From: a virus
Virus record (IMG/VR): IMGVR_UViG_3300027608_002931
Span: 1-48,721 of that record
DNA: 48,721 nt
Direction: 5' to 3' (one strand)
Shown here: in pieces, positions 10,831 through 48,721 of the stretch
Layout of the letters: each line of letters opens with the position of its first letter
Numbering within the stretch: the first letter of the stretch is position 1
Notes under the pieces: model-generated
The model's input: only the letters and a program-made list of their open reading frames with translations
What the model was told of the DNA's origin: nothing
Databases searched by the model: none
Position numbers and translations under genes: made by a program

Positions 10831-10831
10831 A

Positions 10832-11893: not shown

Positions 11894-11897
11894 ATAT

Positions 11898-13564: not shown

Positions 13565-13567
13565 ATT

Positions 13568-14975: not shown

Positions 14976-14999
14976 TATTTTATATTTGTTATTTATTTA

Positions 15000-15596: not shown

Positions 15597-15614
15597 AATA
15601 AAATATTTTTATTT

Positions 15615-16415: not shown

Positions 16416-16417
16416 TA

Positions 16418-19065: not shown

Positions 19066-19066
19066 T

Positions 19067-19477: not shown

Positions 19478-19480
19478 TTC

Positions 19481-20269: not shown

Positions 20270-20272
20270 AAA

Positions 20273-20902: not shown

Positions 20903-20903
20903 A

Positions 20904-21464: not shown

Positions 21465-21466
21465 CT

Positions 21467-24290: not shown

Positions 24291-24293
24291 TTT

Positions 24294-25511
24294 TTATTTA
24301 ATTAAGGATTTGTAAAATTCTGCTCTTTCTTTTGTTACATTATTAAGATCATATCTGTCTTTAACTGTTTCATAAAGTCTTTCACCTAAATCAACAATCA
24401 TATTTGGATTCTCAACTAATTTTTTAATATTTTTAGCCCAATCACTGTGATTATTGGAATCATTTACTAACAACGCATTTCCATCAGTAAATTGACCTTG
24501 GTGTAAGGCATGTTTTAAATCAATTGTGTAAGAACCAACATTTGAAGCAATTAACGCTTTTTTATAAAATCCAGCCTCAATAACTTTTAATTGAGATTTC
24601 ATTCTATTAAAAATGTGATTCTGAATTGGAGCCAATGAAATATCAAATTTAGAATAATTTTTTGCATATGTTGTTACAGGTTTTGTCCAAACTCGAACAT
24701 AATTTTCATTCTCCCAACCAAAAAATTCTTTTTCCTCAAACTTACTTAAAAATTCTTTGTATTTTGGAGTAACAATTTTATAGTTGTCAGTAAAGATTTC
24801 TTCATATCTCGCCCAAACAGTTTCCTCAGGTTTGATTGGTCTTTGTTTTTGTTCGCCAGTTTCTTTATTAATTTCAGTAACAGACCCCCTTATGTCAAAC
24901 CCACAAATAAAATATTGTAGTTTATCCTGTAGTGGAGTTAATTTTGATATAAAACCATTCATCAACCTTAAATCGTGTAGATGTGATGAACCTCCTAACC
25001 AACCAACTCTAATTTTATTTGAGGGTAGTGTTGGTTCATTAAATTGAGGGTCTTTAGGATTTATTGCATTTGCAAAAACTTCTACGTTTTTATTAAATTT
25101 TCTAATCTCGTCAGCAAATATTTTGGTTGTTGTTGTCACATATGACGCAACTTTTAAATTATTAACAATTTTTTTATGAATTTGATTTTGTATAATTAAT
25201 TGATGAATCGGATGCTCTTTTGTCGGTAACCAATAATCATCAATATCAACAATTACAATGATACCATTTAACTTTAACCATTCAATTATCTGAGGAGTTT
25301 CCTCGTAAGTTTGCCCAATATTTCTATGTATATGTACAATCTGATATTTTTTCCAATAATTTATATCGTTAATTTTTGGTTCGTAATCAATATCTACGTG
25401 AAAATCATCAGGGTACATATTTTGTAACATAATGTGGGGGTCAACAGATCGAAATTTTCCAACTCCCGATTTATCTGATGGTAGAACTAATACTTTAATC
25501 TTTTCTTTCAT
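24294..25511 (-). CDS. GT-B glycosyltransferase
   Basis: 405 residues. The N-terminal half carries VLVLPSDKSGVGKFR (9-23) and IVIVDIDDYWLP. The second half starts at IRVGWLGGSSH (about 173), typical of the donor domain of GT-B enzymes, and ends with a conserved-looking IEAGFYKKALIASNVG block at the E-X7-E position. The ending YDLNNVTKERAEFYKSL is the usual closing helix. It should act on a cytoplasmic glycan or protein. Its ATG lies inside the last codons of an endonuclease remnant in another frame. Confidence 0.85.
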   Translation of the reverse strand: MKEKIKVLVLPSDKSGVGKFRSVDPHIMLQNMYPDDFHVDIDYEPKINDINYWKKYQIVHIHRNIGQTYEETPQIIEWLKLNGIIVIVDIDDYWLPTKEHPIHQLIIQNQIHKKIVNNLKVASYVTTTTKIFADEIRKFNKNVEVFANAINPKDPQFNEPTLPSNKIRVGWLGGSSHLHDLRLMNGFISKLTPLQDKLQYFICGFDIRGSVTEINKETGEQKQRPIKPEETVWARYEEIFTDNYKIVTPKYKEFLSKFEEKEFFGWENENYVRVWTKPVTTYAKNYSKFDISLAPIQNHIFNRMKSQLKVIEAGFYKKALIASNVGSYTIDLKHALHQGQFTDGNALLVNDSNNHSDWAKNIKKLVENPNMIVDLGERLYETVKDRYDLNNVTKERAEFYKSLIK

Positions 25512-28753: not shown

Positions 28754-31700
28754 ATGGCACAACAGAACATTAATCAGTACGCATATCCAAAACTAAAAAT
28801 AAGTTTTGCTTTAGATGCGTCAGATATGTCAATATCTTCTGATGAGGTAGATTACAATCAAGAGGTTGTATTCTCACCATATCTTATTGCCCAAACATAT
28901 GGAAATAGATTACCTGTTTATTATGACCTTAATAGTTCAAACACCACACAAAATTTAACACTTACATATGGTCAATATGATTATAGAAATTTAGTTGTTT
29001 CTGAAAACTATTATAACCCAGATAATTTAGATCTTACTTGTTTTAGTGCTCAGAGTGCTTGTGACATAGGTTTAGTTGGAATGGATAATGGTTTAGTAAC
29101 ATCTTTAGTTGGTCAAACAATCACATTTACTAATGGATTATTTAATCAAACAGAAAAATTTCAAAGAACTTATTTTGATAGAAGAATGAAGATGTTCCAA
29201 GTTACGGGATATACTTCACAATATAATAGATTTTCAGGAATACCTAAAAATACTTTATATGAAATTGAAAGCACCGTAGATCCTAATGTTGGTAAATACC
29301 ATAAGTTATATGGTGGTTTTTATCAAGGGTTTTATAAATTATTTGGTTATGATTATGAAGCATTACCCGAAAGAACCAATAAAGGTTGGTCGGTGGAAAT
29401 GGTATTAAAACCAAGAATTATTAACGATAGAATTCCTAGTTTAGGTAACACAACATTAAATGAAATTTATCCTGAGAATAAAAATACATTTTTTTATTTA
29501 GGTACAAGAGCTGAAAATAAGTTTTATCACCATGCCGATGGACATCCAAAATGTTTTACAGGTTATACAAGAGTAACATCAGGATTAACAGATTGTTTAG
29601 TAACGTGTGCATGTTGTAACACGGGTGTGACAAATAGTAGATGTATTTTTGTTTACCCACCAAGATCTGTTGATGGAATCCACGACTACCATATTAATTA
29701 TGGGTGTGATGTCTGTAAGGAACAAAAACGTTATTGCGGTTGTGATTGTGGTGAGGAACCTTGTGGTACATGTGGTTGGGAATGTAAAACTCACCCTTGT
29801 GCTCTTATAACGGGAGTTACCCCAACACCAATGCCAATTGTTCCATTATTGTGTAAACCTTGTCAACCAACCCCTACACCAACACCAACTCCAACCCCAT
29901 CACCTGTTTATTGTGAAGTAACTCCTCCTTGTGATGCACCTTGTCCTGATTGTGATACGTGTGATGAATGTATTGATTGTATTACTTGTGCAACCACAGG
30001 TTACACATCAATAGAAGATACTTGTGAAAAAGATCCTTTATGGGATTCATTATCTAATGCGTTTTCTGTTAAATTTTCAGGAGACCCAAAAAATCCAAAA
30101 ATATGTGTTAAAGTATTAAGATTTACCGGTGATTGTGTTACAACAGGAAGTTGTGCAACAACAGGGATAACACAAATGACAGGATATACAATTGATACTT
30201 ATTGTTCCCCAAATGGAATTTATGATTATTGTTTAACAAGATGTGATTCATTTTTTGATTTAGAAAAATGGATGTTGATTGATGTTGTGTGGAGAAGATA
30301 TACTTGGCTTGATACTTGTGATTTACAATGGAGAGGAGGATTGGGTGATATAACAGAATTAAAATATTTGGATTCATTAGTGAATGATACCACTAAATTA
30401 ATAAAACCACCATATACTCATGAAAATTGTAGTATTGACCCCGAACAAATAGAATTGGTAAAACTTAACCAAAAATGGTTAAATGATTTAGAATATAGAA
30501 TGGGTAGATTAAAAATCTATGTTAATGGAAAACCATTCTTCACAATTGAAAACTTTGAAGAAGTTATTCCAAGAGCATTAGATACTGATAAAGAAAGACA
30601 AATTGGGGTACCATTTAATATGTCTTGGGGTGGTGGAACTCAAGGATTACATGAAAATTTAATTTTTTCATCATGTACTTTACCTTATACAGATTATATT
30701 CAAGACCCCGAATTATTTCCTGAAAATGTTCTTAGTGGGACTACATTTGCGGGAATGAAGACAAATATTTTATTAGAACAAAATTTTGGTGGTACTTTTG
30801 AAGGTGGTATTTCACAATTTAGAATGTATGTTGATCCATTAACTGCTCCCGAAATAAAACACAATTTTAAAATATTAAAGGACAAATTTAGTATGTTTGA
30901 TCCTGATTGTCCTGATTGCAACCCTATTGAATGTAAAACAAATGATTTCTATTTCCCTGTTTGCGATATAGATTATGAAGTAATGTCTGGAACCACACCA
31001 ACACCAACACCAAACCCACCAACACCAAACCCAACACCAACAGCTACCCCATCTTGTTTTATTGACGATTGTGCGAGTTGCGGACCATCATATAGTGCGT
31101 ATAATGAAACAACTTGTTATTCAATTTCATCAATTCCTGCAACACCACCATCAAACCCATATACCTTAGTTCCAGTACAATACGAGGACCGTTCTCAATT
31201 TGGCACGTATGTATATAACCCTGGATATACTGTAAGTGGGTATACAAATTCTATTACTGATGGTTTATATACAATAATAAATACGCCATTTTTATGGAAA
31301 AACACAACATCAACAAACGCAAGTGGACCTATGAATAGATGTGGTTTATGGGTAAATAGTAGTAGTGGACCATTTAATACTTGGGTTGGGTTTAGTGTTT
31401 GTTTAGATGTGTCGACCACAAAAACATATTACATTGGTATTGCTGGCGATAATCACTTTAAATTAACTTTAGATGGAACTGTTATTGTAAATACAAGATT
31501 AGCAATTTCTCAATGGTATGGGGCTAATCTTCCTTTTAAGAGATGGAATGTTTATCCAATAACTATAAATTCAGGTCCCCACATATTAGAACTATTTGGG
31601 TGGAACAACGAACTTGTTGCAGGTTTTGGTTGTGAAATATATGATAACACATTAAATGAATTAATTGCCGCATCAACATTAAGTGACCTAAATATTATTT

Positions 31701-31873
31701 TTACTTCAAGTGGAATAACTTCCGCTAACGTAATACAAGATTCTTACAACGAATATCTTGATACTGGATTTTCTTGTCCTGATGGTTATGTTTACAATCA
31801 TTGTACAAATACTTGTGAATTTTTTAGTTTTTGTTATACATGTCCAGATCCTACACCAACACCTACACCATAA
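28754..31873 (+). CDS. Large multidomain virion surface protein (ConA/LamG-like and PA14-like domains, Cys-rich, Thr-Pro linkers)
   Basis: 1039 residues. WSVEMVLKP (near 211) and LKIYVNGKP (near 586) look like strands of one concanavalin/LamG-like sandwich interrupted by a Cys-rich insert (about 270-400, many CxxC pairs) and a Thr-Pro linker (about 372-383). After a second Thr-Pro linker (about 745-766) a beta domain at 815-1010 has TYYIGIAGDNHFKLTLDG, a PA14/GLEYA-like strand pair. The protein ends abruptly in CPDPTPTPTP and a stop, as though the linker once led to another domain. Likely a carbohydrate-binding tail fibre or surface adhesin. It is the first gene of the plus-strand fibre block. 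Confidence 0.75.
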   Translation: MAQQNINQYAYPKLKISFALDASDMSISSDEVDYNQEVVFSPYLIAQTYGNRLPVYYDLNSSNTTQNLTLTYGQYDYRNLVVSENYYNPDNLDLTCFSAQSACDIGLVGMDNGLVTSLVGQTITFTNGLFNQTEKFQRTYFDRRMKMFQVTGYTSQYNRFSGIPKNTLYEIESTVDPNVGKYHKLYGGFYQGFYKLFGYDYEALPERTNKGWSVEMVLKPRIINDRIPSLGNTTLNEIYPENKNTFFYLGTRAENKFYHHADGHPKCFTGYTRVTSGLTDCLVTCACCNTGVTNSRCIFVYPPRSVDGIHDYHINYGCDVCKEQKRYCGCDCGEEPCGTCGWECKTHPCALITGVTPTPMPIVPLLCKPCQPTPTPTPTPTPSPVYCEVTPPCDAPCPDCDTCDECIDCITCATTGYTSIEDTCEKDPLWDSLSNAFSVKFSGDPKNPKICVKVLRFTGDCVTTGSCATTGITQMTGYTIDTYCSPNGIYDYCLTRCDSFFDLEKWMLIDVVWRRYTWLDTCDLQWRGGLGDITELKYLDSLVNDTTKLIKPPYTHENCSIDPEQIELVKLNQKWLNDLEYRMGRLKIYVNGKPFFTIENFEEVIPRALDTDKERQIGVPFNMSWGGGTQGLHENLIFSSCTLPYTDYIQDPELFPENVLSGTTFAGMKTNILLEQNFGGTFEGGISQFRMYVDPLTAPEIKHNFKILKDKFSMFDPDCPDCNPIECKTNDFYFPVCDIDYEVMSGTTPTPTPNPPTPNPTPTATPSCFIDDCASCGPSYSAYNETTCYSISSIPATPPSNPYTLVPVQYEDRSQFGTYVYNPGYTVSGYTNSITDGLYTIINTPFLWKNTTSTNASGPMNRCGLWVNSSSGPFNTWVGFSVCLDVSTTKTYYIGIAGDNHFKLTLDGTVIVNTRLAISQWYGANLPFKRWNVYPITINSGPHILELFGWNNELVAGFGCEIYDNTLNELIAASTLSDLNIIFTSSGITSANVIQDSYNEYLDTGFSCPDGYVYNHCTNTCEFFSFCYTCPDPTPTPTP

Positions 31874-31904
31874 AACATTTGTCCTTAATATATATAAATA
31901 TAAA

Positions 31905-34145
31905 ATGCAAACAGTACTTATAAGTTCACTTAATTATTTAAATCAATATGGAGATATAACTTTTTATCCTCAAACTGGTGGTACCGTACCTATCGGTATT
32001 CAACTTATCCCTTATTATTATACTGCGGATTATGTTTATGGTCAATATATTGTTTGTTTTACGGCGTCTAGTGAATGTTGTAATTTTACTTTTCCTGATA
32101 ATTTTATTACTCCAACCCCAACATATACACCAACATTAACACCTACATTAACACCTACCCCAACACCAACACCAAGTAATGGACCTATAAACTTATGTTT
32201 ACCTCCTTGTAGTTTAGGTTTTGACAGTTATAGTTCAAACACAGTTGGTCAATTAGTTGTTGGTAGTATAACAGGTGGATGTGGTTTTATAACATCTTAT
32301 GTTATTTATTGGTATGATTTAAATGGAATTGTCCAATTAGTAAGTGGTTATGGTCCATTAATTCCGGGTTACACAACATATACCGTTACCCACCCATTAA
32401 CAGGATCTTCATCTCCTCCAATACCTTCGGGAACATATACACCAGTATTACAAGCAATTGTAATTGCGGGAATAACATATACCTCAACAGGTTTAAGTGG
32501 TACCACAATATCAAATTTAGATTGTCTTAATAATATTGATGTTGTTGTATCATCATTCAGTTGTGAAAACTGCACCGAAATTGGACATTATAAATGTAGA
32601 AAATCATACTCTACTACACCAGGATCCAATGTAGTTCCAGGGTCATTGTCAACCACATTTAATTTAGATCCAACACAACCTTATTTTGCATACTCTTTTA
32701 ACGGAGAAGTAGTTCCCGATAAATTTAAAATAACTTTTGTTAATCAAGATGGAACAAATTATAGTGATCCAATTGTTGTTGAATATATTGAAGTTGGTCA
32801 ATACGTTATTGGAAATACCGATTGGAGGGTTTCTACAATACCTAAAAGAATTCAGACTTTTAATTCAAACGCATACTATGGTAAACCAATTAACTTAACT
32901 AATTTTACAATAAATAATGGTGACTATCTAATATTAGAAGTTATTCCAAACACAGGAATAACTCAAACAAGTTGGGATTTATATTTTACGTGTTTGGAAA
33001 CATTTAATTGTGAAAGTTGTTTGGAGACAAATCCAATATTTAAAATTCTTGAGTCTTCAATAAATACATCATTAGACATATGTAATGTACTTACTTTTAC
33101 CGCAAATGCCATAGGATGTCCTTCATATGGTAGTGAAGATATTTTTAAATATATGCACTCAGTATCAGGTCAATCATTAGATACTATATTTTATACTACA
33201 ATTGGTCAATCATCGTACCAAGCATTAGGTGGATACGGTCTTAATGGAGGGTTATCTTTTAACCCTATTTGTCAACAGTTAGGAACTGAAATTACCCCTA
33301 ATTGTCTTACAAACCCTGGAGAAGTTATAAATTTTGTAAAATCAGGACCAACGATAACAATTACTTGTTCTTCTCTTACAACTAGAGATAATTTTTATAA
33401 CACATATATGTCAATATATAATAGTTTACCAGGATGGACTCCAACACCTCCATCTCCAACTAATATTAATTATTATAAATATATTACCCTTAAAAATATT
33501 GAACCTTTATCGACTAATAGTACTTGTGGTGACGCACAATATAATGTTACTACGTATACCATTCACCCAAGTTCAATTTTAACAACAAGTGGAAGTATTG
33601 GTGCTTGGGTATTAACCATAAATTCATCAACGATAACAAATCAATATCCACAATTAAATTGTGTTAATTGTTATTCAGTTGCAGACAATATAGTTAATAC
33701 TGTTAATAATTTCAACCCTTTTTATGATGTTAATGTTACCACAACAAATGGGTTAAAGTGGGACATACCATTTGTCGGTTATCAATATATGTATTCTCCA
33801 CCAACACCAACAACACCAAGTGCTTGGTTAGGGTCCGCAAGGTTAGCAATACCGTATTATTCTACAAGAACATTACCTTATTCGGGTAGTCCATTAACTT
33901 TTATACCAACTTTATCTGCAACAACTTGTAACTTTAGTTGGATGAATTTTATAAATCAAATTGATTCAACTAATGGAAACGAGTCTCAATATTTTGAAGA
34001 AACGTTTTTTGATTATTATTTTGTTTTAACGGACCCTCTTAATCCAACATATTATGAATTACGTTTATCAAACGGAACCGTAATCTATGAGAGAAATGCA
34101 TCTTTCCCAAGTGGTAATGTTGTTGATAGTAATTATTTTATTTAA
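31905..34145 (+). CDS. Thr-Pro-linker fibre/adhesin protein, paralogue A
   Basis: 746 residues from the ATG at 31905. A longer in-frame start at 31758 lies inside the preceding gene and would destroy the match to the paralogue's N-terminus, so it is rejected. The N-terminal module (about 1-60: ISSLNYLNQYGDITFYP, GG, then YGQYIVCF) recurs in three neighbouring proteins. A short Thr-Pro linker (about 70-90) leads to a beta-rich body that aligns throughout with the next protein: NLCLPPCSLG, then the shared [17 protein letters not shown]. No enzyme motif is visible. Probably a host-binding tail or capsid fibre. Confidence 0.75.
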   Translation: MQTVLISSLNYLNQYGDITFYPQTGGTVPIGIQLIPYYYTADYVYGQYIVCFTASSECCNFTFPDNFITPTPTYTPTLTPTLTPTPTPTPSNGPINLCLPPCSLGFDSYSSNTVGQLVVGSITGGCGFITSYVIYWYDLNGIVQLVSGYGPLIPGYTTYTVTHPLTGSSSPPIPSGTYTPVLQAIVIAGITYTSTGLSGTTISNLDCLNNIDVVVSSFSCENCTEIGHYKCRKSYSTTPGSNVVPGSLSTTFNLDPTQPYFAYSFNGEVVPDKFKITFVNQDGTNYSDPIVVEYIEVGQYVIGNTDWRVSTIPKRIQTFNSNAYYGKPINLTNFTINNGDYLILEVIPNTGITQTSWDLYFTCLETFNCESCLETNPIFKILESSINTSLDICNVLTFTANAIGCPSYGSEDIFKYMHSVSGQSLDTIFYTTIGQSSYQALGGYGLNGGLSFNPICQQLGTEITPNCLTNPGEVINFVKSGPTITITCSSLTTRDNFYNTYMSIYNSLPGWTPTPPSPTNINYYKYITLKNIEPLSTNSTCGDAQYNVTTYTIHPSSILTTSGSIGAWVLTINSSTITNQYPQLNCVNCYSVADNIVNTVNNFNPFYDVNVTTTNGLKWDIPFVGYQYMYSPPTPTTPSAWLGSARLAIPYYSTRTLPYSGSPLTFIPTLSATTCNFSWMNFINQIDSTNGNESQYFEETFFDYYFVLTDPLNPTYYELRLSNGTVIYERNASFPSGNVVDSNYFI

Positions 34146-34174
34146 AATAATTTTAGATTGTATTTATATTTAAA
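34136..34174 (+). repeat. 39-bp intergenic direct repeat, copy 1
   Basis: Identical over 39 nt to 36909-36947. This copy spans the stop codon of paralogue A and reaches the ATG at 34175; it contains a TATTTAT element. Confidence 0.9.
34161..34167 (+). promoter_or_regulatory. TATTTAT element upstream of the gene at 34175
   Basis: TATTTAT, 7 nt before the ATG, inside the 39-bp duplicated intergenic sequence. Confidence 0.4.
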
Positions 34175-36907
34175 ATGATAACACGAATAACTTCGCCATA
34201 TTATAGTGGTCAAACTGCAGAAATAATTTTTTCTCCATGTAGTGGAGGGACAATAAATTTAGGAACTCATTTATTACCATATGATTATGTGAGTGATAAT
34301 TATGAGGGATCATATAGTCTCTATTTTTCCGGATTTTCTATATACTGTGATTTTAATATTCCATGTCCATGTGATTTAATTGTTGAATTCCCTACAACTC
34401 CAACACCAACTATAACTCCAACACCAACATTAACACCAACCATAACTAAAACTCCTACACTTACACCAACCATAACTAAAACTCCGACACCTACACCAAC
34501 ACCAACCTCAACAGATCCTCCTCCGACACCATCTAATACCCCAACAAATACCCCAACAAATACAAAAACACCAACAAATACCCCAACAACAACAAAAACA
34601 CCAACCAATACTCCAACAAAAACTTTAACACCAACACCAACTACCTCTTTTGGATTCACCCCAACTCAAACTCCAACACCAACTATAACACCAAGTACTG
34701 GATCAATAAATTTGTGCATACCACCTTGTAGTTTAGGGTTATCAACTTACGTTCAAAATTCTATTGGTCAATTAATCTGTGGTAATTTAACGGGATCTTG
34801 TGGAAGCATTACCGCATATACAATTTTTTGGTATAACTCATTAGGTAATATTGCATTAAAATCTGGATTTGGGACACCTTATTCATTTGTTGGTCCTTAT
34901 AATTATAACCACCCAATGACGGTTATTAACTCACCAATGTTACCACCAGATACATATACACCAATACTTCAAGCAGTAACAATTGCTGGAACAACTTACA
35001 CCTCAAGTGGTATATCTGGTACAACTTCAACAATAATGGATTGTTTCACTGCACAACAAGTTACTATTGAGTCGTTTAATTGTTCTAATGGAACACTAAC
35101 AGGAAATTATGAACATAGAGTACAATTTACCGCAGGACCTGGATCTGCGGTTCCTCCATCAAGTATGTATGCTCATTTCAATATGGACCCAAGTAAAAAA
35201 TATTTTCCTTTTATGTTTAGAGGGAATCTTATTCCTGACACATTAAAAATGTCATTCATTGGGTCAAACTATGGAAACGTACCAATTGTTGTTGAATTTA
35301 TTGAAGTTGGTGGAGTTATTGGGGCACCTGGTCCATTTTCATTTAGTAATGGTATTGACTATAGAGTTGTTGCAACACCTAAACTATATAAATTTAGTAA
35401 TTTGACTGAGTCTCAAAATTACTTTCCAAAAGTTTTAAATTTAAGTAATTTCGTTATTAATAGTGGGGATTATTTAATAATTGAAGTTATTCCAAACCCA
35501 ACAGAAAATCAAACCAGTTGGGATTTATATTTTACGTGTTTGGAAACTTTTAATTGTGAATCATGTATTCATCAATATTATACATACCCTTACGGACAAG
35601 AAATAATATTATCATCAATAACTCCTGTTTTTAGTCTTGATTGTAATAGACTTTATGTTAATTTTCAAGTTACTGGTTGTAGTGTGTCCACCTTATTGGC
35701 GGAAGATATATTCAAGTATTTTCACCCTGATTTTTCAGGTCTTAGTAATCCGTTTTTACGGACATTAAATACTCCCTCAGCTGGAGGCAATGCGTGTGGT
35801 TGTGGTGGGGCACAATCAAACTATTTTGGTTTAACAAATAACACAGTATTAGGTTTTGGAAATCAAAACTTTCCTTTGAGTCCAAATGGGTCTGCAGGAT
35901 GTTTTATATATAGTAACGGAACCACAACGCTTTGTACTACCAACCCACCAAATACTGTTATTGTTACCAAAATAAACAATGTCATTACAATTACGTGTAG
36001 TAATCAAACAGATAGAGATGCGTTTTATAATTCATATTTATCGTCATTAGCCTCAATATTATGGACCCCAACTCCCCCTTTATCGACATCAATTAATTAT
36101 TATAAAGTTATAATTTTTGATCATTATGAACCGGTAAGTGTGGCATCTAATTGTGCTGATAACCAATTTATATTAAGGTCTTGGAATTTCCACCCATCAT
36201 CAGTTGTAACAACACCTAATTTACCAAATGATTATAAAATGATTATTACAATGAATTTAATTACAAATAATTACGGTGGTGGGGATATTATTTGTGGTGG
36301 GTCATGTTCTGCAACCACAAATACTTTTATAAATAGCGAAATAACCCCAAGTTATAATATTAACCCTAACTATAGTTCAACCTCTAATACGGCACTTAGG
36401 AGTATAGATCCATTTATAAGAAATAGGGGAGTTGGTCAATCAAATGGTGGTTCGGTTATGAAACAGATTGCCTCAACACGGATGTATATTCCTTGGTATT
36501 CTAATATAACCTATCCATACTCTGGTACCCCATTAACAATAATACCTTCATTATCCGCAACAACTTGTGATTGGGGAGGAAACGATGGATTTTTCAAACA
36601 GAATCCGTGGGAATCACAACCAAATACACTTTGTGAGTCAAGTAGATGGTCTCCAAGAGTGTACATTGGACTGCCTTGGGATCCGAGTAACCCTAACTTA
36701 GTTCAAAACCCATTGGGTATTGATGATACAACATATACTATGTACACAGTTGTAAGAACTGATGTAAATGACCCAAGAAGTTTTGACATATATGCCGGAA
36801 GTTACATGAATTCCCCAACAAATTTTTTTAGCCAAATTGCGGATTTAATTTATCGACAAGTAGGTACAAACCCCCCAATTATTTATGATCCTAATTATTT
36901 CGTATAA
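34175..36907 (+). CDS. Thr-Pro-linker fibre/adhesin protein, paralogue B
   Basis: 910 residues. The N-terminal module (1-65) is like that of paralogue A. A much longer Thr-Pro linker follows (about 72-175, units such as [12 protein letters not shown] and [12 protein letters not shown]), then the same body: [29 protein letters not shown], and the ending IYDPNYFV against DSNYFI in A. The body is longer than A by insertions near 500-560 and 650-780. The linker difference between A and B shows that repeat number is free to change. It probably projects a receptor-binding body away from the virion. Confidence 0.75.
34394..34701 (+). repeat. Thr-Pro-rich linker repeat of paralogue B
   Basis: Low-complexity coding repeat built on ACA/ACT-CCA codon pairs, with Asn, Lys, Ile and Leu at variable positions. 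It creates a false open frame on the opposite strand. Confidence 0.85.
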
Positions 36908-36908
36908 G

Positions 36909-36947
36909 TTTTATTTAAAATAATTTTAGATTGTATTTATATTTAAA
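36909..36947 (+). repeat. 39-bp intergenic direct repeat, copy 2
   Basis: Identical over 39 nt to 34136-34174, here lying just after the stop codon of paralogue B and ending 5 nt before the ATG at 36953. Confidence 0.9.
36934..36940 (+). promoter_or_regulatory. TATTTAT element upstream of the gene at 36953
   Basis: TATTTAT, 12 nt before the ATG, within copy 2 of the 39-bp repeat. Confidence 0.4.
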
Positions 36948-36952
36948 CAAAG

Positions 36953-38956
36953 ATGAGTCAAACTATATTAATAGCAAGTGTTAATTATAATGGTGAAATT
37001 GCAACTGTTTTATTTAAACCTGACAATGAAAATATTGTTATTAATTTAGGTAATGTTGTTTTACCTTATTTCTTTAATGCCTCATTACTATCTCCACCAA
37101 GAGAAATATATGGTACATATACAATTTTAATTTTAGGTAACGATGGTAATTGTCGAACAAATTGTCCAAACATACTACAAGTACCAAGACCAACACCTAC
37201 GCCTACGCCTACAGTAACAACTACAAGAACTCAAACACCTACAGTAACACCAACAATTACTCCAACACCAACTTTTGATCCATGTAAGGTTCCGACTCCA
37301 ACCCCAACAGTTACTACCACACAAACAAAAACTCCAACCAATACTCCAACACCAAGTGCAACTTGTACAAATCCTTGTGGTTGTCCTGAACCAAGTAAAA
37401 CCCCAAGACCAACAAAAACTCCGAGATTAACTCCGAGTACAACAAGTGGGTATTGTTATCCGACACCGACACCAACAACAACACCAACCAAAACAAAAAC
37501 TCCAACACCAACAAAAACATTAACACCAACACCAGGATTATCACCAACCGTGACACCAACCGTGACACCAACACCAGGATTATCACCAACACCAACAAAT
37601 ACTGTAACACCAACACTAACAAAAACACCAACTCCTACCGTAACATCAGGGTTACCTCCAACACCAACACCGGCTTGTGCTTCTTGTACATCCGCAGGAT
37701 TATTACCTCAATTTGGTAATTCTGTAACACATAATGGTATAGTAATATCTGCAACCGGTACCGGAAGTATTGGTGCGATTAATAACTGGGGAACCGGAAT
37801 TATATGTCCACTTCCATTACCATATACATCAACAGGAACTGTTTGGTTGGGTAATAATGGAATGCCGAGTCAACCATTTACCTACACATTAACTTTTAGT
37901 GTCCCCGTTAATGATATTGTAATAAGATTATATGCGTATAATAGTAGTACTACACCCCCTCAAGCAGAATCATTTACGTTTACAACAAATATGGGAAGTG
38001 GGATACCAGTAATTTCATCTTGTCAGTATTGTTGCGCAACCATTAATAGTAACACTATAACGGCATCAAACACATCACCAATATGTGATCCATTACCGCC
38101 TGGAAGTGGTTACTCACACGGTAACGGTATTTTTACAATAAGTAATTCATCTCCATTTACAACATTAACTGTTGCAGGTCCTGGCGGAATAAACGGTGCC
38201 GCAATGGATATATGTACAGATTCTTTAACACCTGCAATTCCACCATTTTCAGGATCTTCATTTCTTTTAGTTGCAACATACTCACCAGGAATATATCCAG
38301 AAACAATAAACTCTTTTTACGAGTTATATCTTGATAGACCGTTGAGTGATGATATTATTTTATACTTTAAAAATAAACTTTATTTAAGGTCAGGAAGTTT
38401 TATTGAGATAACAGAATCAATATATATCCCAATAGGTGAAACTTATGGTACCACCCAACATATTAGTAGAACTGATTATTCGTTGTTAAATGGAGAATCA
38501 GAATTTACATATTTTGATCTTATTTCTTATGATGAAATATTTTATACTATAAATATATTAACATATTTTAATCCACCAATCCCAACACCAACTCCTACAC
38601 CAACAAATACTCCTACAAAAACTGTAACTCCAACATTAACTTCAACACCAACTCCTACACCAACTCCTACACCAGAACAATTGATTAACCCTATAATAAC
38701 TGAAAACGATGAATATATTGGTGTTGGTGAAAATGAATATTTGATGTTTGTTGATCCTGAACAAAATATTTTTAACGCTATTTTAACAACAATTGGTGAT
38801 TATATATCGGTTGGAGTTGACCAATTTTTAAGTTTTATTAATCCACCGACATTTACTCCGACATTTACTCCGACACCAACACCGACACCAACACCGACAC
38901 CAACTCCTACTATAACTCCAACACCCACCCCAACACCGAGTCCATATATTTTATAA
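36953..38956 (+). CDS. Thr-Pro-rich fibre protein with N-terminal anchor module
   Basis: 667 residues. The N-terminal module (1-75, ILIASVNYNGEIATVLFKP, then VVLPYFF and YGTYTILI) matches the neighbours. Residues 79-243 are a long Thr-Pro tract interrupted by a small Cys-containing knot (about 104-160). A beta domain follows at 245-425 (SFSVP-type strands; GSGIPVISSCQYCC). A second beta domain (about 440-540), another Thr-Pro tract, a short acidic segment and a final Thr-Pro tail ending SPYIL close the protein. The many Thr residues in extended Pro-rich segments are candidates for O-glycosylation. No enzyme motif is seen; likely a surface fibre. Confidence 0.72.
   Translation: MSQTILIASVNYNGEIATVLFKPDNENIVINLGNVVLPYFFNASLLSPPREIYGTYTILILGNDGNCRTNCPNILQVPRPTPTPTPTVTTTRTQTPTVTPTITPTPTFDPCKVPTPTPTVTTTQTKTPTNTPTPSATCTNPCGCPEPSKTPRPTKTPRLTPSTTSGYCYPTPTPTTTPTKTKTPTPTKTLTPTPGLSPTVTPTVTPTPGLSPTPTNTVTPTLTKTPTPTVTSGLPPTPTPACASCTSAGLLPQFGNSVTHNGIVISATGTGSIGAINNWGTGIICPLPLPYTSTGTVWLGNNGMPSQPFTYTLTFSVPVNDIVIRLYAYNSSTTPPQAESFTFTTNMGSGIPVISSCQYCCATINSNTITASNTSPICDPLPPGSGYSHGNGIFTISNSSPFTTLTVAGPGGINGAAMDICTDSLTPAIPPFSGSSFLLVATYSPGIYPETINSFYELYLDRPLSDDIILYFKNKLYLRSGSFIEITESIYIPIGETYGTTQHISRTDYSLLNGESEFTYFDLISYDEIFYTINILTYFNPPIPTPTPTPTNTPTKTVTPTLTSTPTPTPTPTPEQLINPIITENDEYIGVGENEYLMFVDPEQNIFNAILTTIGDYISVGVDQFLSFINPPTFTPTFTPTPTPTPTPTPTPTITPTPTPTPSPYIL
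37187..37677 (+). repeat. Thr-Pro-rich repeat tract with Cys-containing break
   Basis: Coding low-complexity tract of Thr-Pro units (TKTPTPT, TVTPTPGLSP and similar). The unit TVTPTPGLSPTP appears twice in tandem with near-identical DNA. Confidence 0.85.
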
Positions 38957-41187: not shown

Positions 41188-42264
41188 ATGATACAAGGAA
41201 TTAGAATAACAAGCACAAATTTATCAGGACTAACGGCAAACGTTACTTTTTATCCCACAACTGGTGGGTCAGAAAATTTAGGATCTGAAGTAATACCATT
41301 TAACAATATTTCGGATTATCCTTACGGAACATACGAATTAGACGTTCCATTATATGATAGAACATATGAAATAATTGTACCAGCACCATTAACAGGTCAG
41401 AGCGCATATACTGAAACAGTAAGAACTGTTACCGTTGACGGAGGATACCAACCATTCTCAGGAGCGGTATTATCTGAATTATGGGGAACATACACAACAG
41501 AATATATTACAAATGAAGGAATACTATCAACTGATATTGTTTTAGCTGAAGGTATTTGTTCTGATGATGTTGATGCGGCATACTTACCCGGAAATATCGG
41601 TGGATGGCCAACAAGTATTAATTCTTTCTTAGGACCGTTTATGTCCGGTGGATTGGCGGGTTATCCGTTTGTTGGTAGTGTTGGGTTTGGAGCATTTGCA
41701 AGTCACGTAGCAACAACTCTTGATGGAACCTTGTTTGTAACAAGTATGCCACACATTGGTGTTACTGAAGATGGTCGTTCAGGTAGAATGTTACGTAGAG
41801 GTAAAGTTAATAGTTTAACTGATAATACCTGTGGTGCCGTTGCGGGAGCAATTGATCAAGTTGTAAATCAACTAAGTTCAGCACCAAGTCAAAGTGATGC
41901 ACCTTTTGATAATGAAAATTATTCTTTTTGGAAATTAACAGATATTTTATGGTCACATAAGTCGACATTATCAGGATTCACAGGAACAACTGAAGAGGTT
42001 TATAATAAACAAATGATATTTGCTACAGAAACTATCAGGGATTCTGCTTATGATTATATTATTACAAATTTACCGGCAGCAACATCCGTGAATACCACAA
42101 ATGATGTATATTTTTTAAGTGGTATTTTTATTAATTCTGATGTTAGTTCCGGTACAACACAATTTGAATCATATGTTGTTGTCGATAAAGTTATGAAATA
42201 CGAATTTGGTATTGGGTGGAGTGATATTACTGTTGATTATAAGTTGGGATTACCAATTGACTAA
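41188..42264 (+). CDS. LCIB-like (beta/theta-type carbonic anhydrase fold) domain on a fibre anchor module
   Basis: 358 residues. Residues 1-65 repeat the anchor module of the Thr-Pro proteins (RITSTNLSGLTANVTFYP, GG, YGTYELDV). Residues 90-358 match, by eye, the LCIB/LCIC family of algae and bacteria. Evidence: a Cys-x-Asp start (Cys124-Ser-Asp126), SGGLAGYPFVGSVGFGAF (153-170), MPHIGVTEDGRSG (187-199), a following RRG, and NTCGAVAGA (213-221), with a late LSGIFIN strand (310-316). Known LCIB enzymes hold zinc with Cys-His-Cys; Cys124, His189 and Cys215 fit that order. The Arg expected four residues after the first Cys is Val128, so activity is uncertain. Context says virion surface, not cytosol. 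Confidence 0.7.
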   Translation: MIQGIRITSTNLSGLTANVTFYPTTGGSENLGSEVIPFNNISDYPYGTYELDVPLYDRTYEIIVPAPLTGQSAYTETVRTVTVDGGYQPFSGAVLSELWGTYTTEYITNEGILSTDIVLAEGICSDDVDAAYLPGNIGGWPTSINSFLGPFMSGGLAGYPFVGSVGFGAFASHVATTLDGTLFVTSMPHIGVTEDGRSGRMLRRGKVNSLTDNTCGAVAGAIDQVVNQLSSAPSQSDAPFDNENYSFWKLTDILWSHKSTLSGFTGTTEEVYNKQMIFATETIRDSAYDYIITNLPAATSVNTTNDVYFLSGIFINSDVSSGTTQFESYVVVDKVMKYEFGIGWSDITVDYKLGLPID

Positions 42265-42285: not shown

Positions 42286-42534
42286 ATGAGAATAAATATT
42301 TTAACAGAAAACGATAAGGCAGAACAAGTAAGAGAATCTTGGGTAAATAAAAATGTCATGAAAATACCTTGTTCATCAACAGGAGAAGAACCTGCAACTC
42401 ATTGGTTTTGCACAATGGCGGGATCTGAGGAAAAAATGAATTCTATTTACGCTAAGAAAAACTTATCTATAATGGAATTAGAAATTGGACCAAAAGAATT
42501 TCTTAATAAATGGAATCTGAAAATTATAAGATAG
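42286..42534 (+). CDS. Small hypothetical protein
   Basis: 82 residues: a charged N-terminal half, then ATHWFCTMAGSEEKMNSIY and a basic helical end (FLNKWNLKIIR). No family is recognised; the compact alpha/beta pattern could be a small cytosolic phage protein. Its last 25 nt overlap the start of the oxygenase gene in another frame, indicating translational coupling. The leader is A-rich with no TATTTAT element. Confidence 0.65.
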   Translation: MRINILTENDKAEQVRESWVNKNVMKIPCSSTGEEPATHWFCTMAGSEEKMNSIYAKKNLSIMELEIGPKEFLNKWNLKIIR

Positions 42535-43142
42535 TAAAAAATTTCATCAGTGATGATGAGGTTAAACTAATTGTTGACTGGGTAGATTCGTTAAATCCTG
42601 AAGATGGAGATCCGAATTACCACTTAAGTGAAATCTCAAAAACACTGAAGGGAAAATCTTGTATTATAGACATCTCAAATACCGAACTTACAAACTACAT
42701 TACAAATTTTCAATCAGTTTCTAAAGTTTCAAATCAAGAGATACCCCCAATTATCAAAACTATTTTAAAAAGGATATCTGAAAAGAACAACCTACCCCTT
42801 GATAATATCTTTATTCAGGCGGTTGATATGAAAAAAGGTGGTAGAGTAAAACCCCACTATGATGCGTCACTTGATGGTTACATAAATTATAAGTGTAACA
42901 TAAGTGTGTTATCAGAAGATTACAAAATTTTTATAGACAGTTCTTCACCTGTGATAGAACAAAAAGACCTATACTGTTTTGAGGCTTCTTTATACAAACA
43001 TTGGACCGAAGAGTTTAACTCAAGAAGGGTGTTTTTAAGTTTTGGGTTTATAGTACCATATAGTGTGGTTGGAAGAACGGAAAACGATCCAAGAGTTAGA
43101 TTAAGTCAAAGAATTACAAAATATTTTCAAAAACATAGTTGA
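42510..43142 (+). CDS. 2-oxoglutarate/Fe(II)-dependent oxygenase (prolyl-4-hydroxylase-like)
   Basis: 210 residues. The opening YKIVKNFISDDEVKLIV is the usual N-terminal strand-helix of P4H-type oxygenases. Iron ligands are His116 and Asp118 in KPHYDAS and His164 in LYKHWTEE; Arg172/Arg173 just after is the 2-oxoglutarate anchor, within RRVFLSFGF. It should hydroxylate a protein, nucleotide or small molecule using O2 and 2-oxoglutarate. Such enzymes are common in T4-like phages, with targets mostly unknown. Here it sits among Thr-Pro-rich and collagen-like fibre genes, so a fibre residue is an attractive but unproven target. Confidence 0.85.
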   Translation: MESENYKIVKNFISDDEVKLIVDWVDSLNPEDGDPNYHLSEISKTLKGKSCIIDISNTELTNYITNFQSVSKVSNQEIPPIIKTILKRISEKNNLPLDNIFIQAVDMKKGGRVKPHYDASLDGYINYKCNISVLSEDYKIFIDSSSPVIEQKDLYCFEASLYKHWTEEFNSRRVFLSFGFIVPYSVVGRTENDPRVRLSQRITKYFQKHS

Positions 43143-43513: not shown

Positions 43514-46500
43514 ATGGGATTTCAAAGACTGACGGATAGGACAATTGCCACAGGTGTATCGATTAATGATTTAATACATATCGTTATTACCGGTGACACA
43601 TCCCAAAATCCGGCAGGATCTTCGTATAAAGCAACAATTGCACAAGTAGGTGCCGCAATTTCTACTGTCGGTACTTCAGGTACTTCAGGTACTTCAGGTA
43701 CAGATGGATCAAGCGGAACTGATGGAACCTCAGGAGCCAATGGGACTTCAGGAACAAATGGTACTTCAGGTGCAAACGGAACTTCAGGAACGAATGGTAC
43801 TTCAGGATCTAATGGTACAGATGGAACGTCAGGGTCTAATGGTACCAACGGAACATCAGGGACTCACGGGACAAGTGGTACTGATGGTTCTTCAGGGACT
43901 AATGGTTCTTCAGGAACTAATGGTAGTAGCGGCACTAATGGTAGTAGTGGTACTAATGGTAGTAGTGGTACAGATGGGACTTCAGGCACTAACGGTACAA
44001 ATGGTTCGTCAGGAACTAATGGAACAAATGGTTCGTCAGGAACTAATGGAACAAACGGAACAGATGGAACAAGCGGTACTAATGGGTCTTCAGGAACTAA
44101 CGGAACAAGTGGTACTAATGGGACTTCAGGAACAAATGGGACAAGTGGTATATCGGGAGTAAATGGAACATCAGGTACTGATGGTAGTAGTGGAACAAAC
44201 GGTACAGATGGTACATCAGGAACGAATGGTTCAAGCGGTACAAATGGAACTTCAGGATCAAGTGGAACGAATGGAACTTCAGGAACAAATGGCACTTCAG
44301 GATCAAGTGGAACGAATGGAACTAGCGGAACAAATGGGACTAGCGGAACAAATGGTACTTCAGGAACGAATGGAACATCAGGAACTAATGGTACAAACGG
44401 AACAGATGGAACTTCAGGAACCAACGGTACAAATGGCACTAGTGGAACGAATGGTTCAAACGGAACTGATGGTACTTCAGGAACTAATGGAACTAATGGA
44501 ACTAATGGAACAAACGGTACGGATGGAACTAGCGGTACGAATGGAACTTCAGGTACTAATGGTACAAATGGAACTAATGGAACAGATGGAACAGATGGAA
44601 CCAGCGGAACTAATGGTACTGACGGCACTTCAGGGACTAATGGTACAGATGGTAGTTCAGGGACTAATGGTACAAACGGAACTGATGGGACAAACGGAAG
44701 TTCAGGTACAAATGGAACTAGCGGTACTAACGGAACTGACGGATCTTCAGGGACTAATGGAACAGATGGTTCAAGTGGGACTAATGGAACGGATGGAAGT
44801 AGCGGAACAAATGGTACTAGCGGAACAAATGGTACAGACGGAACTAATGGAACAAATGGAACGGATGGTACTTCAGGTACAAATGGAACGGATGGAACCT
44901 CAGGTACAAATGGAACGGATGGGACTTCAGGTACTAACGGAACGGATGGGACTTCAGGTACAAATGGAACGGATGGGACTTCAGGGACTAACGGTACTGA
45001 CGGAACAAATGGTACTGACGGATCAAGTGGTACTAGCGGAACAAATGGAACAGATGGTACTTCAGGTACTGATGGGACAAATGGATCTAGTGGAACGGAT
45101 GGAACTTCAGGTACAGACGGAACTAATGGAACTTCAGGAACAAATGGTACAGATGGAACTTCTGGAACAAATGGAACAAATGGAACAAATGGTACTAGCG
45201 GTACTGATGGTACTAACGGAACTTCAGGTACTAACGGAACTTCAGGTACAGACGGAACTTCAGGTACAGACGGAACTTCAGGTACTAACGGTACTGATGG
45301 AACTTCAGGAACTTCAGGAACTGATGGAACTTCAGGAACTAATGGAACTTCAGGAACTAATGGTACAGACGGTACTTCAGGAACAAATGGTTCATCGGGT
45401 ACAGATGGAACTTCAGGGACAAACGGTACTGACGGAACTAGTGGAACTGATGGAACATCAGGAACTAACGGAACAAATGGTAGTTCGGGGACTGACGGTA
45501 CTAGCGGAACAGATGGATCTAGTGGAACAAATGGTACTGATGGAACTTCAGGAACAAACGGAACTGACGGATCTTCAGGGACTAACGGAACAGATGGAAG
45601 TTCTGGAACTAATGGTACGGACGGAACTTCAGGGACAAATGGTACGGACGGAACTTCAGGGACAAATGGAACAAATGGGTCAGACGGAACTTCAGGAACA
45701 AATGGAACAGATGGAACTTCAGGAACTAACGGAACGGATGGAACTTCAGGAACAAACGGAACTAATGGAACAAATGGTACTGACGGAACTTCAGGAACAT
45801 CACCATTAATTTGTACACCATTCTTAGCGGGAGATTATTATTTTCAATCGGTAGCTCAAACATACAATGGTCCTTCCTACGCAAATATGGCATGGGGACC
45901 TGGACAAACATTAAGTGTATATGCCCCTGGTGATGATATTATACAATATATGTTAATTAGCGGTTATACCGCCTCAACGGGTGATTTAATTGCAATTATT
46001 ACATATTCTCAAAGTCCAGGTTATAAAACAATTGGAGGTGTTTATCTTTGTCTTGTTGGAGAACAAGGTACATCCGGCACAAATGGTACTTCAGGAACTA
46101 ATGGTACGGACGGAACCTCAGGTACTAATGGAACAGATGGTACTAACGGTACAGACGGAACTTCAGGTTCAAATGGGACTAGTGGAACTGATGGAACTTC
46201 AGGAACCGACGGAACTAATGGATCAAGTGGAACTGATGGGACTAGCGGAACAAACGGAACTTCAGGGACTAATGGAACAGATGGTACGGATGGAACTTCA
46301 GGGACTAATGGAACTTCAGGTACGAGCGGAACGAATGGAACTTCAGGTACTAGCGGAACGAATGGAACTTCGGGTACGAGCGGAACGAATGGAACTTCAG
46401 GAACAAATGGTACTAGTGGAACTAACGGGACAAGTGGTACCAACGGTACTAGCGGAACAAATGGAACTTCGGGTACTAATGGTACGGATGGTACTAATGG

Positions 46501-48721
46501 AACTTCGGGGACAAATGGAACGAATGGAACTTCGGGAACCAACGGAACATCAGGAACCAACGGAACATCAGGTACCAACGGTACAAATGGAACTTCAGGT
46601 ACAAATGGTACATCGGGAACTAATGGAACTAACGGTACGTCAGGAACATCGGGTACTAATGGTACCAATGGAACTTCAGGAACAAATGGTACTTCAGGAA
46701 CAAATGGTACAGATGGAACTTCAGGCACTAATGGAACTTCAGGCACTAACGGAACAAATGGTACTAGTGGAACTAACGGAACTTCAGGAACAAACGGAAC
46801 GAATGGGACTAGCGGAACAAATGGTACTAACGGAACATCTGGTACTAACGGAACAAACGGTACTTCGGGAACTAACGGCACATCAGGCACAAATGGAACC
46901 AATGGTACTAGCGGCACCAATGGAACAAACGGATCATCGGGAACTAATGGGACTTCAGGTACAAATGGAACGGACGGAACATCTGGTACTAACGGAACCA
47001 ATGGTACTAATGGTACGAGCGGTACTAATGGCACTTCAGGTACAAATGGAACTAATGGAACCAATGGGTCTTCAGGAACCGATGGGACAAATGGAACCAA
47101 CGGGACTAGCGGAACTAATGGAACTAATGGAACTTCGGGTACAAATGGGACTTCAGGTACAAATGGAACAAATGGTACAAGTGGAACGAACGGTACTAAT
47201 GGAACTAGCGGAACCAATGGAACGAATGGTACTAACGGGACATCAGGAACAAATGGTACAAGTGGAACGTCAGGAACTAACGGAACGAATGGTACTTCAG
47301 GTACTAATGGAACAAGTGGTACTAGCGGAACGAACGGTACTAATGGAACATCGGGAACAAACGGAACATCAGGTACTAGCGGAACAAATGGTACGGACGG
47401 TACTTCAGGTACTAACGGAACATCGGGAACAAATGGGACTTCAGGTACGAATGGTACATCAGGTACTAATGGTACAAACGGAACTTCAGGTACAAATGGT
47501 ACTAACGGAACGTCGGGAACGAATGGTACTAACGGAACTAGCGGATCAAATGGCACTAGTGGTACAAATGGTACTTCAGGTACAGACGGTACTAGCGGAA
47601 CAAATGGAACCAACGGAACGTCGGGAACGAATGGTACGAACGGAACGAATGGTACAAGCGGGACTAATGGAACTTCGGGAACGAACGGTACTAACGGAAC
47701 TTCAGGTACGAATGGTACAAACGGAACATCAGGTACCAACGGTACTAATGGTACGGATGGAACTTCAGGGACTAATGGAACATCAGGCACAAATGGTACT
47801 AGCGGGACAAATGGAACATCTGGTACTAACGGAACAGATGGTACATCGGGAACAAACGGAACGTCAGGTACGAACGGAACCAATGGAACAAGTGGAACTA
47901 ACGGGACTAATGGTACAAGCGGGACAAATGGAACTTCAGGTACTAACGGAACGAATGGAACTAGTGGTACAAATGGGACAGATGGAACTTCAGGTACTAA
48001 CGGAACAAATGGAACTAGCGGAACGAATGGTACAAACGGTACATCAGGAACTAATGGAACATCGGGGACTAACGGAACAAATGGGACCTCAGGAACTAAC
48101 GGAACATCAGGTACTAATGGCACTAGCGGAACTAATGGGACAAACGGTACATCAGGTACCAATGGAACTTCAGGGACGAATGGTACAAACGGAACTAGCG
48201 GAACGAATGGAACAAATGGTACATCAGGAACCAACGGTACGTCAGGTACAAACGGTACTAATGGAACTTCAGGTACTAACGGAACATCAGGAACTAATGG
48301 TACCTCAGGTACAAACGGAACAAATGGTACAAACGGGACTAACGGAACATCTGGAACAAATGGAACAAATGGTTCAAGTGGTACTAACGGTACTAGCGGA
48401 ACAAATGGTACCTCAGGTACAAACGGAACAAATGGTACAAACGGGACTAACGGAACATCTGGAACAAATGGTACAAGTGGAACTAACGGTACATCTGGAA
48501 CAAATGGTACGAATGGTACTAGTGGAACCAATGGAACTTCGGGAACTAATGGAACAAACGGAACATCAGGTACGAATGGAACTAATGGAACTTCTGGTAC
48601 AAACGGTACAAGTGGTACCAACGGTACTTCAGGTACTAATGGTACATCAGGTACAAACGGAACAAATGGTTCAAGCGGTACGAATGGTACTTCGGGAACT
48701 AATGGAACAAGCGGCACAAAT
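43514..48721 (+). CDS. Collagen-like giant fibre protein, 3' end outside the window
   Basis: Open from the ATG at 43514 to the last base, 1736 codons, with no stop. Residues 1-52 are an anchor (LTDRTIATGVSINDLIHIV, then GDTSQNPAGSSYKATI). Residues 53-763 are an almost perfect G-X-Y repeat (GTS, GTN, GTD, GSS). Residues 764-851 are a non-repetitive beta domain with two Cys, and from 852 the G-X-Y repeat resumes to the window end. Pro is absent from the triplets, unlike animal collagen; Thr at X is typical of bacterial and phage collagen-like rods, and in Bacillus BclA similar Thr residues carry sugars. Expected to form a long trimeric fibre. A GIS-GVN pair near 44149 is a rare deviation. Confidence 0.9.
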   Translation, partial: MGFQRLTDRTIATGVSINDLIHIVITGDTSQNPAGSSYKATIAQVGAAISTVGTSGTSGTSGTDGSSGTDGTSGANGTSGTNGTSGANGTSGTNGTSGSNGTDGTSGSNGTNGTSGTHGTSGTDGSSGTNGSSGTNGSSGTNGSSGTNGSSGTDGTSGTNGTNGSSGTNGTNGSSGTNGTNGTDGTSGTNGSSGTNGTSGTNGTSGTNGTSGISGVNGTSGTDGSSGTNGTDGTSGTNGSSGTNGTSGSSGTNGTSGTNGTSGSSGTNGTSGTNGTSGTNGTSGTNGTSGTNGTNGTDGTSGTNGTNGTSGTNGSNGTDGTSGTNGTNGTNGTNGTDGTSGTNGTSGTNGTNGTNGTDGTDGTSGTNGTDGTSGTNGTDGSSGTNGTNGTDGTNGSSGTNGTSGTNGTDGSSGTNGTDGSSGTNGTDGSSGTNGTSGTNGTDGTNGTNGTDGTSGTNGTDGTSGTNGTDGTSGTNGTDGTSGTNGTDGTSGTNGTDGTNGTDGSSGTSGTNGTDGTSGTDGTNGSSGTDGTSGTDGTNGTSGTNGTDGTSGTNGTNGTNGTSGTDGTNGTSGTNGTSGTDGTSGTDGTSGTNGTDGTSGTSGTDGTSGTNGTSGTNGTDGTSGTNGSSGTDGTSGTNGTDGTSGTDGTSGTNGTNGSSGTDGTSGTDGSSGTNGTDGTSGTNGTDGSSGTNGTDGSSGTNGTDGTSGTNGTDGTSGTNGTNGSDGTSGTNGTDGTSGTNGTDGTSGTNGTNGTNGTDGTSGTSPLICTPFLAGDYYFQSVAQTYNGPSYANMAWGPGQTLSVYAPGDDIIQYMLISGYTASTGDLIAIITYSQSPGYKTIGGVYLCLVGEQGTSGTNGTSGTNGTDGTSGTNGTDGTNGTDGTSGSNGTSGTDGTSGTDGTNGSSGTDGTSGTNGTSGTNGTDGTDGTSGTNGTSGTSGTNGTSGTSGTNGTSGTSGTNGTSGTNGTSGTNGTSGTNGTSGTNGTSGTNGTDGTNGTSGTNGTNGTSGTNGTSGTNGTSGTNGTNGTSGTNGTSGTNGTNGTSGTSGTNGTNGTSGTNGTSGTNGTDGTSGTNGTSGTNGTNGTSGTNGTSGTNGTNGTSGTNGTNGTSGTNGTNGTSGTNGTSGTNGTNGTSGTNGTNGSSGTNGTSGTNGTDGTSGTNGTNGTNGTSGTNGTSGTNGTNGTNGSSGTDGTNGTNGTSGTNGTNGTSGTNGTSGTNGTNGTSGTNGTNGTSGTNGTNGTNGTSGTNGTSGTSGTNGTNGTSGTNGTSGTSGTNGTNGTSGTNGTSGTSGTNGTDGTSGTNGTSGTNGTSGTNGTSGTNGTNGTSGTNGTNGTSGTNGTNGTSGSNGTSGTNGTSGTDGTSGTNGTNGTSGTNGTNGTNGTSGTNGTSGTNGTNGTSGTNGTNGTSGTNGTNGTDGTSGTNGTSGTNGTSGTNGTSGTNGTDGTSGTNGTSGTNGTNGTSGTNGTNGTSGTNGTSGTNGTNGTSGTNGTDGTSGTNGTNGTSGTNGTNGTSGTNGTSGTNGTNGTSGTNGTSGTNGTSGTNGTNGTSGTNGTSGTNGTNGTSGTNGTNGTSGTNGTSGTNGTNGTSGTNGTSGTNGTSGTNGTNGTNGTNGTSGTNGTNGSSGTNGTSGTNGTSGTNGTNGTNGTNGTSGTNGTSGTNGTSGTNGTNGTSGTNGTSGTNGTNGTSGTNGTNGTSGTNGTSGTNGTSGTNGTSGTNGTNGSSGTNGTSGTNGTSGTN
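43670..45802 (+). repeat. Collagen-like coding repeat, block 1 (Asp-containing)
   Basis: 237 triplets of Gly-Thr/Ser-Ser/Asn/Asp. Codons for Gly, Thr and Ser vary freely from unit to unit. GTD is frequent here. Long open frames on other frames and strand are by-products of the 9-nt periodicity. Confidence 0.93.
46319..46399 (+). repeat. Three 27-bp tandem units in the collagen-like gene
   Basis: Three adjacent 27-nt units (46319, 46346, 46373), each coding GTSGTNGTS. Units 1 and 3 are identical; unit 2 differs at two positions. Confidence 0.9.
48296..48363 (+). repeat. 68-bp direct repeat in the collagen-like gene, copy 1
   Basis: Identical to 48404-48471; the offset is 108 nt, exactly twelve Gly-X-Y triplets. 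Confidence 0.9.
48404..48471 (+). repeat. 68-bp direct repeat in the collagen-like gene, copy 2
   Basis: Identical to 48296-48363. Synonymous codons otherwise vary, so the identity marks a recent in-frame duplication or gene conversion. Confidence 0.9.

Follow-up and report, generated by a model that had tools for sequence, protein, structure and literature searches.

Collagen-like fibres and the stability of repetitive genes

Synonymous codon choice has been shown to avoid mononucleotide repeats (Ackermann and Chao 2006; PMC1378130), and the engineered scrambling or diversification of codons in repetitive genes stops recombination between the repeats (PMC12365220, PMC10094428). Among natural repetitive genes, those for collagen-like phage fibres are represented by E. 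coli prophages, whose tail fibres are likely trimeric side-tail proteins that have been seen by electron microscopy, and a rise of approximately 0.29 nm per residue has been applied to a phage collagen (PMC3368898).

The gene considered here occupies positions 43514–48721 on the plus strand of the window, the whole 48,721-nt stretch of viral DNA that was analysed (IMG/VR record IMGVR_UViG_3300027608_002931). As in the E. coli prophage fibres (PMC3368898), phage fibre domains are joined by a Gly-X-Y stalk. The collagen region of the prophage fibres comprises 111 residues (~32 nm), whereas that of the window fibre comprises at least 1,599 residues, with proline absent from both of its arrays, and the terminal domain has no Pfam match to the prophage fibre families. 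In common with mononucleotide avoidance (PMC1378130), silent codon choice is arranged against slippage-prone DNA; there, however, the unit is one base and the scale whole genomes, while here the unit is 9 bp within one repetitive gene, the fibre also alternates at the protein level, and the shares of selection and mutational purging are not distinguished. The array differs from engineered scrambling (PMC12365220, PMC10094428) in being natural and in having its strongest effect between immediate neighbours. A limited search of the open-access literature yielded no account of such avoidance arising naturally on the scale of a 9-bp protein-repeat unit. Known stability-related codon choice concerns single-base runs, and the fibre gene presents the case of a whole repeat unit, testable in cultured phages or plasmids, with a measurable signature of how a genome retains a gene whose repeats would be expected to ruin it.

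Architecture of the fibre gene

The open reading frame starts with ATG and continues for 1,736 codons without a stop before the contig end. It encodes 533 Gly-X-Y triplets in two long uninterrupted runs, one of 237 (aa 53–763) and one of 296 (aa 849–1736, open at its end); 527 of the 533 are GTN, GTS, GTD, GSS, GSN or GSD, and the other six are GAN (twice), GTH, GIS, GVN and GEQ. The Pfam Collagen match (E 2e-223) is driven by this composition. The protein opens with a conserved, attachment-type N-terminal domain (aa 1–52; 43514..43669, +) that begins many collagen-like fibres: a 53-aa query found at least 160 relatives in IMG/VR, those kept being 66–96 % identical, and among PHROG families it matched 'virion structural protein' weakly (E 0.008). 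There follow array 1, with 237 triplets of the GTN/GTS/GTD/GSS kind (43670..45802, +; adjacent-codon avoidance z −2.5), a non-collagen knob of 85 aa (aa 764–848; 45803..46057, +) predicted to be a small all-beta domain (AlphaFold pLDDT 87.7), and array 2, with 296 triplets of which the first is GEQ (46058..48721, +; adjacent-codon avoidance z −3.3), which is cut by the contig end. Nineteen relatives of the knob lie on other viral contigs (alignment A1), and a Foldseek search with it returned no confident PDB relative (best E 0.06). The longest exact direct repeat of the gene, 68 bp in copies at 48296 and 48404 (48296..48471, +; 108 bp apart), is a recent block duplication.

Phage-type non-collagen terminal domains are thus represented by the common N-terminal domain and by the C-terminal domain of a complete relative, the window fibre's own C-terminus lying past the contig end. 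With two or more Gly-X-Y stalks between its terminal domains, the gene product is probably a fibre of great length on the virion of a T4-like phage; if triple-helical, the window arrays would span a calculated length of at least 460 nm at ~0.29 nm per residue. A tblastn search of the phage collection with the whole fibre protein gave no match, the array probably being masked by low-complexity filtering.

These counts bear out the initial annotation in its description of a collagen-like fibre of more than 1700 residues with more than 500 Gly-X-Y triplets that continues beyond the window. Its statement that the triplets use only Thr/Ser and Ser/Asn/Asp holds for all except the six listed above, its picture of the fibre missed the 85-aa non-collagen domain, and its suggestion that the gene is among the longest phage fibres is plausible, given complete relatives of up to 3,723 aa and an open reading frame of 3,488 aa in a 735-kb phage.

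On the strand opposite the array, an 892-aa open reading frame (46042–48720, −) is a by-product of the Gly-Thr-Asn/Ser codons. Genes have been annotated on the strand facing a collagen array in Microcystis phage Mel-JY01 (PP395634; L443, 1–651 and 739–2298).

The carrier phage and its relatives

The window encodes a gp23-type major capsid protein (phrog_138, major head protein, E 1.2e-65) with tblastn matches to gp23 of T4-like phages. Records whose capsid protein is 76–88 % identical to that of the window reach 292 kb, which makes it likely that the window represents part of a larger genome. A scan of genome contigs with the N-terminal domain found no relative, and therefore no host was assigned.

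The closest complete relative, G001, shares 96 % identity in the N-terminal domain; its gene, 3,723 aa long, combines 1,102 triplets with a single knob and a C-terminal domain, and its arrays, if triple-helical, would measure approximately 960 nm, again calculated at ~0.29 nm per residue. The tail fibre of Flavobacterium phage immuto (MW353175) matches the C-terminal domain of G001 at 44 %, and the major capsid proteins are 41 % identical, but the immuto fibre has 578 aa and no Gly-X-Y array. The model of the C-terminal domain was poor (pLDDT 66), and its best Foldseek hit, to a mycobacteriophage structure, was not a confident one (E 0.07). Further giant fibre genes, measured from stop to stop, include a complete one of 3,345 aa in G003 and two neighbouring collagen-like genes of 2,553 and 3,122 aa in G004 (L113, 114–17276). 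The 735-kb uncultured phage LR756501.1 (L442, 6696–26491) likewise carries unannotated collagen-like open reading frames, of 2,830 and 3,488 aa, whose GTS/GSS/GTT arrays display the one-triplet tendency described below, although its capsid similarity is barely detectable (24 %, E 4e-4). The window knob differs from that of G001 and occurs in the collagen-like genes of other phages; from these sequences, knobs appear to be exchanged between fibre genes.

The fibre is a member of a widespread and already known kind, and its codon arrangement is the new part. A widespread group of uncultured T4-like phages encodes fibres whose length, calculated for 1,102 triplets at ~0.29 nm per residue, approaches one micrometre, and short-read contigs frequently end within giant fibre genes.

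Codon order in the arrays

In the window arrays Gly and Thr each use all four codons, as initially annotated, and Ser uses all six rather than the five originally listed, TCC occurring once. Codon entropy in the array and in the other window genes is 1.50 versus 1.54 bits for Gly, 1.65 versus 1.62 for Thr, 1.96 versus 2.07 for Ser and 0.91 versus 0.77 for Asn; Asn and Asp codons are used somewhat more evenly in the array, and AGC accounts for 0.15 of its Ser codons against 0.02 elsewhere in the window (~7-fold). The entropy comparison proposed with the initial annotation accordingly found nothing unusual in variety: codon variety is ordinary, and it is codon order that departs from chance. In the window alone, neighbouring triplets differ by 3.66 bases out of 9, versus 3.14 after the triplets are permuted (z 10.5), and codon identity at a distance of one triplet is 0.339 versus 0.395 in shuffles (z −3.9).

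The same deficit is present in many separately assembled contigs. Across 50 dereplicated arrays one-triplet codon identity is 0.339 against 0.411 expected (z −24.9; Markov null z −20.5), and the deficit persists when the null models preserve each triplet together with its neighbours (z about −19), the full range being z −19 to −25 over five different context-preserving nulls and one Markov null. A dereplicated set of 102 viral arrays, totalling 22,511 triplets, gives a one-triplet ratio of synonymous-codon matches of 0.859, which is 14 % below context-preserving shuffles (z −29), rising to 0.963 at two triplets and 1.02–1.03 at three to six. Since the z-values count shuffles as the sole source of variance and the arrays are related to an unknown degree, safer evidence is provided by the number of arrays that fall below expectation (91 of 102) and by the 49 arrays outside the first set, where the one-triplet ratio is 0.856 (z −18.8).

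Whole repeat units show the effect more strongly. Adjacent identical 9-mers number 356 against 923 expected (0.39), whereas identical 9-mers at two triplets number 1021 against 919 (1.11) and at three 1446 against 917 (1.58), with enrichment of 1.11–1.58 over distances of 2–10 triplets. Exact matches of 9–14 bp at a 9-bp shift stand at 0.54 of expectation. The decay of such matches beyond 18 bp was set aside as evidence, because clumping produces a similar mid-length deficit in cellular controls, and the codon-identity and whole-9-mer measures were adopted instead. The arrays thus contain fewer slippage-prone repeats than their protein and codon usage predict. Amino acid order is affected as well: identical neighbouring triplets occur at 0.60 of expectation and GTD-GTD at 0.08, a scarcity that may be a charge effect. 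By amino acid, the one-triplet codon ratio is 0.755 for Asn and 0.67–0.86 for Gly, Thr and Ser; Asp contributes only 15 pairs at this distance.

The effect depends on the composition of the array. The ratio is 0.848 in viral arrays of the GTN/GTS/GSS/GTD type (n=81) and 0.951, or little to no avoidance, in those of other composition (GTQ, GIQ, GNQ, GYS; n=21), a result that counts against the explanation favoured below. All six arrays of the 735-kb phage lie under the one-triplet expectation. Avoidance was absent from 26 cellular collagen arrays (1,338 triplets), with one-triplet ratios of 0.99–1.035 and a 9-mer ratio of 1.14, these controls being few and different in composition.

Turnover of the arrays

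Near-identical contig pairs differ in their arrays mainly by in-frame indels (9, 18, 45, 63, 72, 90 and 135 bp), most of which are flanked by 11–138 bp of direct-repeat homology, often with zero substitutions. In one lineage of 12 near-identical contigs, a single 9-bp indel (present in 4 of the 10 contigs that span the site) and a single substitution were found over the 13 kb compared. The 9-bp indels are unpolarised, standing for either loss or gain, and a fresh duplication would itself resemble a tandem repeat; the larger indels with long homology (72–135 bp) could be differences in short-read assembly. A few divergent pairs show indels with little homology, and one indel of 243 bp has only 2 bp. 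The recurrence of in-frame indels between direct repeats demonstrates that the array is genuinely at risk of length change mediated by its repeats.

The window and G001 are 91 % identical across the 500 bp made up of upstream and N-terminal sequence, yet their arrays align no better than the window arrays do to a codon-shuffled copy, which indicates that the array turns over much faster than substitutions accumulate. Such turnover, possibly together with exchange between phages, has removed the positional homology between the arrays.

Origin of the codon arrangement

The Gly-X-Y protein pattern imposes a 9-bp near-repeat on the DNA and thereby renders it prone to slippage and recombination. 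Whole triplets are inserted and deleted rapidly between direct repeats, as seen in related contigs, while block duplications would lengthen the array and selection on the fibre would maintain its length. Deletion-biased slippage, selection acting against unstable alleles, or the two together would purge identical adjacent 9-bp units, two routes that are not separated here, and the outcome would be DNA that is codon-scrambled locally and carries duplicated blocks at longer range. This reading, in which block duplication rebuilds an unstable array while slippage, selection or both take away adjacent identity, is the best explanation, with a probability of approximately 0.68. The selection against DNA self-recombination proposed in the initial annotation is thereby recovered in its effect, that is, in direct-repeat-flanked in-frame indels and depleted adjacent identity, while selection itself is not distinguished from deletion-biased slippage.

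Toy simulations address only the sufficiency of these processes, their parameters having been set by hand and more than one set tried. Balanced neutral duplication and deletion gave one-triplet ratios of at least 1. Deletion-biased slippage with longer block duplication gave, depending on the settings, 0.86–0.97 for codons and 0.33–0.90 for 9-mers. A first simulation had produced only a weak one-triplet deficit (0.97), and a second, in which homology dependence was steeper and adjacent events were more numerous, matched the observed size. Direct selection gave 0.51–0.88 for codons and 0.09–0.55 for 9-mers. Slippage and selection models can each reach 0.86–0.89 for codons and 0.33–0.55 for 9-mers at one triplet, and the simulations fit the two about equally. 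A stricter and less probable proposal is that these phages are under direct selection for slippage-stopping codon arrangements in giant fibre genes, acting on the 9-bp unit and on amino acid order, with block duplication supplying length; if true, it would constitute a natural counterpart of engineered codon scrambling.

Explanations that dispense with instability fare less well. The initial annotation had also offered silent drift after array formation under protein-level selection only, and the array's codon entropy, close to that of ordinary window genes, agrees with this; however, under drift adjacent identity should equal or exceed chance, where 14 % below was observed, and drift accommodates neither the frequent recent block duplications nor silent sites that lack positional homology to a relative 91 % identical just upstream, so that drift alone deserves very little credence. 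An ancestral unit of several triplets whose neighbours differed by accident would explain the enrichment of identity at three triplets (1.58), as expected of a 27-bp unit. Such a unit would lower one- and two-triplet identity equally, and the undiminished two-triplet identity (1.11, against 0.39 at one triplet) speaks against a three-triplet founder; the pattern is also seen again in arrays that differ in composition, as well as in the 735-kb phage, and a founder effect is therefore considered unlikely.

Translation could in principle favour the alternation of synonymous codons, since every third codon is Gly and demand would be spread over tRNA isoacceptors, and Gly, Thr and Ser codons do alternate at three-codon spacing. 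The codons AAT and AAC are normally read by one tRNA, and their avoidance, similar to that of the other three amino acids, argues against tRNA cycling, as does the avoidance of identical adjacent triplets by the protein itself; we regard this account as very unlikely. Equally, short reads might assemble scrambled arrays only, leaving uniform ones missing from databases, and many contigs, including the window, do end inside such arrays. Two adjacent identical 9-mers nevertheless fit well within one read, assembly penalises long identity and yet identity at 2–10 triplets is enriched, and the final 21–127 bases of the window are found nowhere else within it, making ascertainment a highly improbable source of the pattern.

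Neighbouring genes

Just upstream of the fibre, a 210-aa open reading frame (42510–43142, +) contains an HYD...H pattern resembling that of 2OG-Fe(II) oxygenases; it was rejected as a hydroxylase, its prolyl-4-hydroxylase match being non-significant (E 1) and no family being found, and the gene is absent from the fetched relatives. Another gene (41188–42264, +) encodes a Pfam LCIB_C_CA domain (limiting-CO2-inducible B/C beta carbonic anhydrase; E 1.8e-29) together with an N-terminal stretch similar to the N-termini of late proteins nearby (34175, 36953), and had no match in the phage collection or the fetched relatives.

A sugar and glycosylation block (10024–25511, −) includes a GDP-mannose 4,6-dehydratase (E 3e-115), fucosyltransferases of families GT10 and GT11, a weak NodZ match, a GT25 protein, several GT2/GT1-like proteins and a DegT-type aminotransferase. 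The GT25 family includes procollagen galactosyltransferases, which makes glycosylation of the fibre conceivable and worth testing. Large late proteins with Thr-Pro (PTPT) repeats are encoded at 28754–38956 (+), and a 12-bp indel between the near-identical relatives L016 and L021 falls within a PTPT repeat.
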